Positions 20,672 to 64,000 of a stretch of 64,000 bases of DNA are shown one piece after another. This stretch comes from Fibrisoma limi BUZ 3 (GTDB lineage Bacteria > Bacteroidota > Bacteroidia > Cytophagales > Spirosomataceae), in contig NZ_CAIT01000006.1 of assembly GCF_000296815.2 (NCBI RefSeq), forward strand, positions 62,001 to 126,000, read 5' to 3'. Made by a program: the position numbers and the translations under genes. Position 1 is the stretch's first letter, and every line of letters begins with the position of its first letter. The notes beneath the pieces were generated by a model, which was given only the letters and a program-made list of their open reading frames with translations, was not told the DNA's origin and made no database searches.

Positions 20672-21863
20672 GCGAAGAATTGGTCAGTTGCGCAAACAAA
20701 GTTAGCAGGGTTTCGACACTTTGGCGGGCCGGATGCCGTTCCTGTATCTTCTGATTCAGCCGCCGGCCGAGCGTACGGCGTAATTCCGGCTGTTCGATCA
20801 GTTCTACAACCCGGCTGCTCATGGCATCGAGGTCGAGGTAGGGAACAACAAATCCGCCATCGGTTTCAACCAGTTCGGGCGAGCCGCCGGCTTTGTCGAA
20901 GCACACAACCGGCAAATTGCACAAACCCGCTTCGAGTACGACGAGTGGGTAGGGGTCTTCCCGCGAACACAACACAAACACGTCGAACTGGCTCATGTAC
21001 CGGAGCACTTCGGGGGTTTGTGGCACCAGATGAACGCGGTCTTCCAGCTCCGCTTTCTGAATGTCCAGCACCAGGTCGTCGCGAAGCGTGCCAGGCTGCA
21101 TTCCTACCCAGACAAAATGCACATCCTGGGCCGACATCCGCCCCGTGACTATTTTAGCCATCGAAACAAACAAATCGTTGCCTTTTCGCCACTCGGCGTT
21201 GCCGCAGCCGCCAATAACAACCGCGTTTTCGCCGATGCCGAGTGACTCAAGAACGCCCGGCTGCTGCTGAGCGTCCTGCACGTTTCGAATCAGAGCGGGC
21301 GTATCAATCAGGGTGAATAACGTAATGCGGGCTGGATCGAAGCCGTGTTCCTGCTCGTAGTAGCGGGCGGTAGCCCGCGATACGGCCAGCAGGTGGGTCG
21401 TGCGATTCAGCAGATAGGCTAATTCCTCGGGCTGGGTATAAATGCGCACCGAGAGCGGCAGCTCATGCACGAACGTAACAACGGGCACATCGGGCGATAT
21501 AGGCAAGTGGCTCAGCCAGCGGCCACTCGTTACGGTGTTGACCAGCACCAGATCGATTGAGTCGAGGGCTAATTCTGTCCGGAGGGTTTGCTGATGCTGC
21601 TCCAGTTTCTGCTGATACGCCTGCTGCCAGAGTCCTAATTTGCCCAGGAGCTTGTCGGCAACGCCACCCACCACGTGGGGGTCGGGTTCCGGCCAGAGCA
21701 CTACCGGACAGACCTGCTGGTATTCGTCCAGCAACGCGCCCCCGGCTCCCAGCAGCAACCGCATCTGAATGCCTTCCTGTTTCAGCAGGCGCATGAGCTG
21801 GAGCAGCACCAGTTGAGCGCCTGCGCGGTTGGCATCGTGGCCAATGAGGAGAATGGTTTTCAA
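20664..21863 (-). CDS. Family 4 glycosyltransferase
   Basis: 399 residues with a GT-B fold: KTILLIGHDANRAGAQLVLL at the N-terminus, VVIGGCGNAEWRKGNDLFV at the domain boundary, and the EX7E motif in CSREDPYPLVVLEAGLCNLP. The only start that keeps the N-terminal strand intact is TTG at 21863; no in-frame ATG lies upstream because a purine/pyrimidine inverted repeat directly precedes it. Translation may therefore be weak or depend on that structure. It overlaps the acyltransferase gene by eight bases. Confidence 0.88.
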   Translation of the reverse strand: MKTILLIGHDANRAGAQLVLLQLMRLLKQEGIQMRLLLGAGGALLDEYQQVCPVVLWPEPDPHVVGGVADKLLGKLGLWQQAYQQKLEQHQQTLRTELALDSIDLVLVNTVTSGRWLSHLPISPDVPVVTFVHELPLSVRIYTQPEELAYLLNRTTHLLAVSRATARYYEQEHGFDPARITLFTLIDTPALIRNVQDAQQQPGVLESLGIGENAVVIGGCGNAEWRKGNDLFVSMAKIVTGRMSAQDVHFVWVGMQPGTLRDDLVLDIQKAELEDRVHLVPQTPEVLRYMSQFDVFVLCSREDPYPLVVLEAGLCNLPVVCFDKAGGSPELVETDGGFVVPYLDLDAMSSRVVELIEQPELRRTLGRRLNQKIQERHPARQSVETLLTLFAQLTNSSHA

Positions 21864-21864
21864 A

Positions 21865-21952
21865 GGAGTAAAGGAGAAGAGGAAGGAAAGGAGGAAAGGA
21901 ACGAGGAGAGCGCAAATACCTTTCTCCTTTCCTCCCCTCCTCCTTTCTCCCC
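21865..21952. repeat. Long imperfect purine/pyrimidine inverted repeat
   Basis: The left arm (about 21865-21899) is almost pure purine on the plus strand, with GGA/AAGG units; the right arm (21919-21952) is its imperfect complement, separated by about 20 bases. The arms are roughly 34 nt and mostly complementary. It lies between the PglD-like gene and the TTG start of the GT4 gene and could act as a terminator or attenuator. Confidence 0.7.
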
Positions 21953-21956
21953 TTAG

Positions 21957-40193: not shown

Positions 40194-40303
40194 GAGCAGT
40201 TGGTCTGATGAGAGAGCAGTAGGTCTGACGGCACGTCTGACCGGTTTAACACTATTCTTTGTACACCTGCCGGTCAGACGTGCCGTCAGCCCTACTGCTC
40301 CAT
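40194..40303. repeat. Dispersed palindromic element (31-bp arms)
   Basis: The left arm 40214-40244 and right arm 40270-40300 are inverted copies of each other at 30 of 31 positions, around a 25-base loop. The core of each arm contains GGTCTGACGGCACGTCTGAC. A partial direct copy of the arm start (GAGCAGTTGGTCTGA) lies just before at 40194-40208. The right arm contains the last two codons and the TAG stop of the SIS gene. A 17-base piece (CGGTCAGACGTGCCGTC) is identical at 63978-63994. A purine-rich tract (40119-40165) precedes it. Confidence 0.88.
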
Positions 40304-62314: not shown

Positions 62315-64000
62315 TCAATATGTCCCGGCCTGCAGCGTACTTTTCGATAGCGCATACTTTCGGTTGACGCGGTCAAGCACGACGTAGATAGAGTCCTTGC
62401 TTTCACTAATACCGCTCAGAATGACTCGTGAGCCGTCCGTGGTTCGGTAAGTCAGGATCATCCGGTTGCGCGCTACGTCCCGACGGAGTTCGGCTTTGAT
62501 TCCTTTTGTCCGGCGGGTAGAGCGGGCAATGGGGGCAATTTTACTGTCTTCGTCACCGATGTTGACCAACGCTTCCTTCGGTACCCATTGAGCCACGGCG
62601 GCTTTTGGTTTTGGCTTCTTTGTTTTAGCGTCATCAGGCTCCTCACCGCCATCGCCACGCGGGCCACCCGGCCGGTACTTGTCTTGCAGATACAACACCT
62701 GATTTTTGGGGTCGGCGTCGTAGTAGAAAACCCGCTGACCACCCGCTACGCCGGTCAGCTCAAACGTGCGGTTGAGGTCGCGCATGGGCGCGCCCCCGCC
62801 GTTGGAGAGATCGAGCGGTACGGCGCGGTTGGTTTTGAACGTCAGCGTCGACCAATTCTCAAACGTAGCTTCCTGCCAGCGAACGGAGTCTAATGGCGAG
62901 TAGGGGAGTACCTTGCCATTGAGCCGGAACTCCGTTACATTATAGTTGCCACGCAATTCGGGGACGCCTTTCTGAGCGGGCTGTTTGTACGGATCATAGC
63001 GAAAATTGACGTACTGCACCCAGAACAGCAGCACCAGGAAGACACCAATCGTGGCGGTTTTCAGACCAATCCGAACGTAACGCTGCCAACCCGTGAAGGT
63101 CGGGTAATAGTGGGACGGTACGGTAAAGCGCTCTTTGATGAGCAGGTTGTACAGACTCGGAATGTAGTTGATCAGCAGGAAAGCCGACAGCAGCACAAAG
63201 TACGAGCTGTAGCCATGAACGCCCCCGTCGTAGGCAAAATTGACGTAGACAATATCAGCCAGTGCCCCGAACAGCAAGATGGCTCCCCAGAACGTAGTTG
63301 CCCGAAAAAACAACAGGGCTCCCGCGGCTACTTCAACCACGTCCGTAAATACTTCGTACCAGGGGACAATGCCGATGGAAAGCCAATAGATCTTCTGGGC
63401 CGTGAGGTCGCCGAAGTTGGTGTTCAGTAACCCCAGCGATGGGTAGGGTAACTGCGTCGGCATCAACTTCGTGAAGCCGAAACCGATGATACCGATGCCC
63501 GCCCGGTAGCGTACGATCACCCGTAGCCAGTAGTACAGGAGCGGTCCGGCGTCCCAGTTGTAATGTAACGGCTCTGCTTTGCGTAAACGGGCAACTGCCG
63601 TCCAGATCAAGCCAGCCGCAATGGCGACCAAGAGCGTGATAATCCAGGGGGCGTAACCCAGCAACGTACTGCCGAAGAGTTTGTTGCCAAACAGCGTGAC
63701 ACCCGAATTAAAACGGGACAGGTCGTAGAGATCCCGGTAATGCAGATGCAGCCAGTCTAACGAAACGGCGTTTTTGTACCAATTTCCGTTGTTGGGCAGC
63801 GCCATGATGACGAAGTACACGAACGCAATCCGGAACAGAATCTTCTGCCCTGACGTCCACGGTCTTCGGGTCGTATCTCGGTCTGGCGTGACTCGGTCTG
63901 ACGTGACCCGGTCTGACGTGACCCGGTCTGACGTGACTCGGTCTGACGGTACGTCTGATCGGAGTGGTTTATTAGTGCGGTCAGACGTGCCGTCTGATCG
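62315..64000 (-). CDS. DoxX-like membrane protein, 5' end outside window, with VTSDR repeats
   Basis: The frame stays open to the window edge, so this is a partial gene (561 codons visible). A start could be the GTG at 63820 or ATG at 63805, but the hydrophobic segment ILFRIAFVYFVIMAL spans those and argues for an upstream start. Reading from the edge, the first ~50 residues are hydrophilic and contain VTSDR pentapeptides encoded by a 15-bp tandem repeat and a dispersed palindrome. About seven membrane helices follow (e.g. WIITLLVAIAAGLIWTAV, GIGIIGFGFTKLMP, VEVAAGALLFFRATTFWGA), resembling DoxX/COG-type quinone-associated membrane proteins. A soluble tail (about 350-560) is lysine- and proline-rich near DDAKTKKPKPKAA. 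Function is unknown. Confidence 0.75.
   Translation of the reverse strand, partial: RSDGTSDRTNKPLRSDVPSDRVTSDRVTSDRVTSDRVTPDRDTTRRPWTSGQKILFRIAFVYFVIMALPNNGNWYKNAVSLDWLHLHYRDLYDLSRFNSGVTLFGNKLFGSTLLGYAPWIITLLVAIAAGLIWTAVARLRKAEPLHYNWDAGPLLYYWLRVIVRYRAGIGIIGFGFTKLMPTQLPYPSLGLLNTNFGDLTAQKIYWLSIGIVPWYEVFTDVVEVAAGALLFFRATTFWGAILLFGALADIVYVNFAYDGGVHGYSSYFVLLSAFLLINYIPSLYNLLIKERFTVPSHYYPTFTGWQRYVRIGLKTATIGVFLVLLFWVQYVNFRYDPYKQPAQKGVPELRGNYNVTEFRLNGKVLPYSPLDSVRWQEATFENWSTLTFKTNRAVPLDLSNGGGAPMRDLNRTFELTGVAGGQRVFYYDADPKNQVLYLQDKYRPGGPRGDGGEEPDDAKTKKPKPKAAVAQWVPKEALVNIGDEDSKIAPIARSTRRTKGIKAELRRDVARNRMILTYRTTDGSRVILSGISESKDSIYVVLDRVNRKYALSKSTLQAGTY
63879..63953. repeat. 15-bp tandem repeat encoding VTSDR units
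   Basis: Five near-identical 15-bp units (CGGTCTGACGTGACC type) start at 63879, 63894, 63909, 63924 and 63939. The second, third and fourth differ at one base or none. They keep the reading frame of the minus-strand membrane protein. Confidence 0.9.
63939..64000. repeat. Dispersed palindromic element, second copy, cut by window end
   Basis: Two 23-bp arms (63939-63961 and 63978-64000) are inverted copies at about 19 of 23 positions around a 16-base spacer. The second arm shares CGGTCAGACGTGCCGTC with the element at 40214-40300. The element may continue beyond the window. Confidence 0.85.

Follow-up and report, generated by a model that had tools for sequence, protein, structure and literature searches.

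The repeat array at the window locus

The window, that is, the whole 64,000-nucleotide stretch analysed here, spans G000:C9:62001-126000 of the 7.63-Mb genome of Fibrisoma limi, a free-living bacterium; beyond its edge we followed the DNA on L009, an 11-kb stretch from 125000 onward. Close to that edge lies a minus-strand gene for a membrane protein, hereafter the window gene, and within its frame are a 15-bp tandem array and two units of an imperfect palindrome (Table 1). The frame runs uninterrupted from 64000 to 62315, and its product includes the stretch ...RSDVPSDRVTSDRVTSDRVTSDRVTPDR.... With 94% matches and a score of 123 in Tandem Repeats Finder, the period-15 array has the top score among the 26 tandem-repeat rows of the window. 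Palindromic units (up to 3 mismatches) occur four times in the window, compared with a mean of 0.00 in 100 shuffles. A sequence-only reading of this DNA had placed a tandem repeat and palindromes encoding VTSDR or VTPDR inside an open minus-strand frame, and we found the array, the units and the translation as it described them.

Table 1. Coordinates of the features at the window locus and of element copies in two other genes; positions without a prefix are those of the window.
Feature	Position	Strand	Details
Membrane-protein CDS	62315..64000, on past the window to ATG 64076 (L009:1076)	-	Called from open frame and homologues
15-bp tandem repeat	63877..63948	.	4.8 copies; minus-strand product VTSDR three times plus VTPDR
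21-bp imperfect palindrome unit	63940..63960	-	1 mismatch to consensus; gives SDVPSD in the gene frame
21-bp imperfect palindrome unit, inverted	63979..63999	+	3 mismatches; gives SDGTSD in the gene frame
Long hairpin from both palindrome units	63924..64000, on to about 64017	.	Folds and hairpin-type Rfam matches
Feature without any spanning frame with coding signal	40222..40292	.	
Insert in rnpA (RNase P protein)	L034:1415-1583 (G000:C5:532414-532582)		57 residues; four palindromic units plus spacers
Element in MutS-like ATPase	L148:3003-3069		Between two parts of the conserved ATPase domain

The hexamer coding score is below zero across the repeat. For 171 nt around it, the plus strand folded at -90.2 kcal/mol (z -6.73) and the coding strand at -61.1 kcal/mol (z -4.52). 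Searched against Rfam, the hairpin had six matches at E<=1 (five microRNA precursors and one snoRNA), all below their gathering scores, the best reaching 36.1 against 58 bits; we therefore dropped membership in any Rfam family and take the signal as that of a long hairpin. Elsewhere in the window, at 21862-21953, purine-rich short-period repeats resembling AAAGGAGG are followed by a pyrimidine-rich counterpart.

Start codon and N-terminal tail of the window gene

The true start had been expected outside the window, and extension of the contig past 64000 indeed led to an ATG at 64076, 76 bases beyond the edge, with no stop codon between 64000 and this ATG to break the frame. The in-frame ATG, GTG and TTG candidates are ATG 64076 and TTG 64031, then GTG 63820 and ATG 63805, the last two having been named by the sequence-only reading as starts that would speak against it. 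A homologous match to the window protein is present in 85 of 150 family genomes, and we compared N-termini at the 28 best-matching loci from other genera (L050-L077). In all 28 homologues a W-x4-K-x2-FR block comes after a tail whose length varies. In the F. limi protein this block lies upstream of GTG 63820, and between the repeat and the block there is no in-frame ATG, GTG or TTG codon; translation would therefore begin upstream of the repeat. Starts at GTG 63820 and ATG 63805, either of which would lose the block, were rejected on the strength of this homology.

ATG 64076 is thus likely to be the translation start, a call that leans on the conserved block and not on a shared N-terminal motif. 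The motif MSxIKTTSD...LQPTS is common to both Fibrisoma proteins, the orthologue of F. montanum beginning with MSSIKTTSD and that of F. limi with MSTIKTTSD. A shuffle test for an N-terminal motif of the family ahead of the repeat, for which 16 of the 28 homologues were picked by hand, gave a mixed result: the F. limi score was reached by 2 of 2000 shuffles, that of F. montanum by 595 of 2000. ATG 64076 sits 7 bases after the stop of a same-strand upstream paralogue, and this spacing is identical in both species. The upstream neighbour (L009:1084-2505) and the window gene are tandem paralogues of about 40% identity, both without a Pfam or NCBIfam match, and a similar neighbour gene is listed in many family genomes. 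Since the window protein itself matched no Pfam and no NCBIfam family at E<=1, the label 'DoxX-like' given to it earlier finds no support, and assignment to DoxX or another family of these collections was abandoned.

None of the 28 homologous tails read contains element peptides. The idea that a repeat was captured as an N-terminal extension is supported, with a refinement. The repeat does lie in the coding frame; a variable tail before the first membrane segment is, however, found throughout the family, and the repeat is therefore an insertion in the tail and not the tail's origin. One homologue from another genus (L051, from 1252) carries an unrelated 15-bp repeat, encoding AGPHQ, in the same N-terminal tail. 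That repeat has three exact copies on site and one 1-mismatch match elsewhere, compared with three control matches, so it is local to its gene, and we rejected the idea that this tail had repeatedly taken up dispersed repeats, in another genus too.

A dispersed palindromic element in Fibrisoma

The unit of the element, GGTCAGACGTNCCGTCAGACC, frequently forms a pair with its reverse complement, and in some cases arrays of the 15-bp derivative go with it. Allowing up to 3 mismatches, a search of the genome returned 91 matches, 45 forward and 46 reverse, in 90 places, one of which matches on both strands, whereas the reversed unit used as a control gave none genome-wide at the same threshold. The matches group into 46 clusters, of which 16 contain one match only, and neighbouring pairs of distinct units are in opposite orientation in 39 of 44 cases. 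By inspection, the 15-bp unit resembles the 21-bp unit minus 7 internal bases. This shorter unit need not be a coding adaptation, since arrays of it are also found at places, such as L042, L025:1956-2067 and L037, that are not spanned by any gene frame with coding signal.

The element has a narrow distribution. With at most 1 mismatch, the unit is present in 5 of 150 family genomes: the two Fibrisoma have 69 and 75 matches, and the remaining three genomes, all from a single further genus, have 3, 1 and 4. In the genome_contigs collection of 84,980 species, from whose list the F. limi genome itself may be missing, exact matches lie in 31 stretches, 24 from F. montanum and 7 from Emticicia, Cytophagales/Cytophagaceae and Chitinophagales records. 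A Cytophagales metagenome-assembled genome (L120:7670-7690) has a single exact unit that is read in frame as RSDGTSDP; the open frame around it comprises at least 798 codons and reaches the stretch edge. Three viral contigs (L171, L172, L173) have a 3-mismatch unit giving KSDGTSD in a long ORF, with some 630 residues downstream.

A short imperfect palindrome (20-40 bp) in many dispersed copies with alternating neighbours is the architecture of REP/BIME repeats. Y1_Tnp (PF01797) matched three times across the two Fibrisoma genomes, and no unit (up to 4 mismatches) lies within 6.2-6.5 kb around any of the three, for which reason we rejected a RAYT as the mover of the element; nor were palindromes flanking a tyrosine transposase gene, the REPtron trait, seen in these two genomes. 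When the consensus was compared by eye with the excerpted description of CGTC REPs (PMC3733652), it departed from their traits, which are a CGTC tag at the terminus, a stem of 8-9 bp, a loop of 4-5 nt and a CCA-like tail: in the Fibrisoma unit CGTC is internal, the 4+4 bp stem encloses an A-A mismatch, the loop has 3 nt, and there is no CCA tail. A MITE would have terminal inverted repeats together with a target-site duplication; inverted units are present. At L009:8601-8652, where F. montanum has no unit, flank alignment leaves 236 F. limi bases against 78 of F. montanum, and the site is not a clean empty one with a target duplication.

In-frame copies in other conserved genes

Seven of the 46 clusters, apart from that in the window gene, are in frame within genes that show homology to either side of the element. 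The genes encode RnpA, a MutS-like ATPase, MoeB/ThiF with rhodanese, a gamma-glutamylcyclotransferase-like protein (GGACT), GlpD, a GH13 oligo-1,6-glucosidase and an S15 peptidase, and in five of them (RnpA, MutS-like, MoeB, GGACT and GH13) the product is longer than its relatives. RnpA is the most conspicuous case: its open frames measure 192 and 188 aa in the two Fibrisoma, whereas 7 family members, aligned out of 17 further relatives that were found, have frames of 127-174 aa. An insert of the element type is absent from all 7, and the F. montanum version is rearranged. Two of the 7, the RnpA proteins of L176 and L178, have smaller, different inserts in the same loop, which indicates a permissive site. 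As phmmer found no PDB match for RnpA at E<=0.001, its insert is judged from Pfam and relatives.

For the MutS-like ATPase, homology to 5akb_A stops at 508 and restarts at 551, with the element at 520-542; F. montanum has a shorter, degenerate insert in the same place. The inserts in the MutS-like, MoeB/ThiF and GGACT proteins were seen in alignments with 5, 6 and 5 relatives, respectively, that belong to other genera. In GH13, query residues 432 and 479 correspond to the adjacent residues 431 and 432 of 5do8_B, and 29 of the 46 extra residues fall within the element cluster at 450-479. The best PDB relatives of GlpD and the S15 peptidase align across the unit with gaps of just one or two residues; here, then, the unit is in the gene without clear extra length in the F. 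limi protein. GlpD of F. montanum is 45 residues longer at the element site, with two further units.

Four further genes, for an oxoprolinase, an AraC-type regulator, an epimerase and NFACT, are probable in-frame cases. The oxoprolinase was rejected as a two-sided case on account of its PDB homology, which starts only at residue 189, past the element at 57-81; it is counted as probable from the F. montanum flanks and a second, unplaced Pfam stretch. PDB homology of the epimerase covers 11-225, upstream of the element at 248-255, the downstream stretch being weak, and that of NFACT lies only downstream of the element. Clusters L035, L040, L152 and L160 were left uncounted, as translation could begin downstream or the element is not spanned by a domain, and cluster L026 had no family match. 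An outer membrane efflux protein (L038:1683-1727), which has 15-bp units only and so stands outside the 46 clusters, has VTPDR, a pentapeptide also encoded in the window gene, three times between a start that by eye resembles a signal peptide and the mature domain.

The unit has no stop codon in five of its six frames. Among 32 units, four frames are used (by 12, 10, 7 and 3 units) and the fifth, VRRTVR, by none, in a count drawn from 12 F. limi genes, 4 of them merely probable, and 4 F. montanum genes, of which orthologues are not independent. VRRTVR is present in open frames of clusters uncounted as genic (L035, L160, L138). A biased use of frames, with VRRTVR avoided in genes, is suggestive at most. 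With copies in frame inside the window gene and other conserved genes, dispersed repeat pieces are probably translated into the cell's proteins.

Remodelling in the sister species

The genus comprises two genomes, and our comparison is one of two species, F. montanum being covered by 24 unit-holding stretches and a few others. Its orthologue of the window protein has 89% identity over residues 2-501. In the tail of the F. montanum gene the element is present as well, and related units spaced by 15 bp flank the palindrome on both sides. Between the species, the tail DNA aligns with gaps of 54 and 15 nt and the protein with gaps of 18 and 5 residues. Thus the arrangement and copy number of the repeat were altered with the frame kept, and the suggestion that copy number can change in frame is borne out for the two Fibrisoma compared.

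Of 45 F. limi clusters, 24 had both flanks matched among the F. montanum stretches, and at 22 of these 24 an F. montanum unit is on site, two F. limi clusters sharing one of the occupied sites. As the F. montanum stretches were picked for holding the unit, many sites are shared, while the count does not give the proportion of shared sites.

Origin of the in-frame copies

We consider it very probable that the repeat is part of a REP/BIME-like palindromic element that is restricted to one lineage, and that proteins tolerate this element in their tails, loops and linkers, where it is remodelled in frame. This interpretation builds on the dispersed, mostly alternating copies, the in-frame sites inside conserved genes, the lack of element peptides in the homologues of the window gene that were read, the extra length in five other proteins and the in-frame remodelling between two species. 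Units would survive in genes by being free of stops in five of six frames, by measuring 7 and 5 codons and by encoding hydrophilic peptides; frame-breaking insertions would be lost by selection, and arrays may change by slippage or recombination. The element peptide is probably a tolerated linker and not a new function.

Other explanations have to be weighed against such an element. The repeat might be an untranslated leader, translation starting at GTG 63820 or ATG 63805 and the upstream frame being open by chance. The hexamer score over the repeat is not coding-like, the test for an upstream motif was negative for F. montanum, a unit free of stops in five of six frames makes an open frame weak evidence, and excerpts of PMC3733652 note that many N-terminal intragenic REPs may be extragenic. 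Yet both codons follow a block found in every homologue read, no start codon separates repeat from block, and the alignment with F. montanum has gaps of 54 and 15 nt; a leader thus appears very improbable to us. Scarcely more credible is an adaptive insert, in which the element was co-opted and its charged tail or mRNA hairpin regulates the window protein or its translation. A stable mRNA hairpin is predicted between the start and the first membrane segment, and the site is occupied in both Fibrisoma species; against this stand the occurrence of the same peptides in unrelated proteins, the different repeat arrangements of the two species and the variability of the tail in the family.

An artefact of assembly or sequencing can practically be dismissed: repeats are prone to misassembly, but in the separate F. 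montanum genome several genes have, at corresponding sites, elements that are related yet different, and their frames are intact. A bolder proposal, which we regard as unlikely, is that the element has become adapted to genes, having been selected for readability in nearly every frame and for short hydrophilic linkers, and would be a continuing genome-wide source of in-frame insertions in the loops of core enzymes, RNase P and MutS-like proteins among them, some with acquired roles.

If the copies are, as we think, tolerated insertions of a REP/BIME-like element, they place an in-frame palindromic element in core proteins of a bacterium with a 7.6-Mb genome, whose sister species remodels the same sites in frame. 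Fibrisoma would then be a tractable system for studying how dispersed repeats turn into protein sequence and for asking how far core proteins such as RnpA tolerate inserts. It also raises the question of what copies the element without a visible dedicated transposase.

Comparison with known systems

Searching the openly licensed PMC literature by title and abstract start (Fibrisoma; palindromes of Spirosoma, Cytophagales and Bacteroidetes; intragenic REPs), we found no description of the Fibrisoma element. According to excerpts of PMC10969869 and PMC3733652, the best-documented in-frame palindromic elements are those of obligate intracellular Rickettsia, where, as in Fibrisoma, dispersed palindromes lie partly in frame within unrelated genes. 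F. limi has such copies inside conserved genes in 7 of 46 clusters, in the window gene and in the 4 probable genes. The likeness is one of description. The Fibrisoma host is a member of the Bacteroidota with a 7.6-Mb genome, and its element is a 21-bp unit in mosaic arrays, whereas Rickettsia palindromic elements measure about 150 bp.

Coding minisatellites (VNTR) share with the window array a 15-bp unit and an in-frame change of copy number between species; unlike them, and unlike the local repeat of L051, the Fibrisoma unit belongs to a dispersed family. PARCEL, as excerpted from PMC2996958, likewise consists of palindromic DNA repeats translated in variable copy number, but encodes an amphipathic motif of 25 residues in ORFs to which no function is assigned, whereas the Fibrisoma element contributes short hydrophilic stretches to conserved enzymes.

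Intragenic REP/BIME repeats of the GTAG and CGTC types, the latter reported in Bacteroidetes, are, in the excerpted account of PMC3733652, short palindromes, often in inverted pairs and mostly outside genes, some of them inside genes for DNA repair and RNA enzymes, and in all this they resemble the Fibrisoma element. The Fibrisoma unit differs in having no terminal GTAG, in having CGTC internally and not as a terminal tag, in its 15-bp tandem derivative and in that no unit was found near the Y1-type transposase genes. The best reading of these comparisons is that the Fibrisoma element may work like the palindromic elements of Rickettsia and the intragenic REPs, but in a large-genome member of the Bacteroidota.
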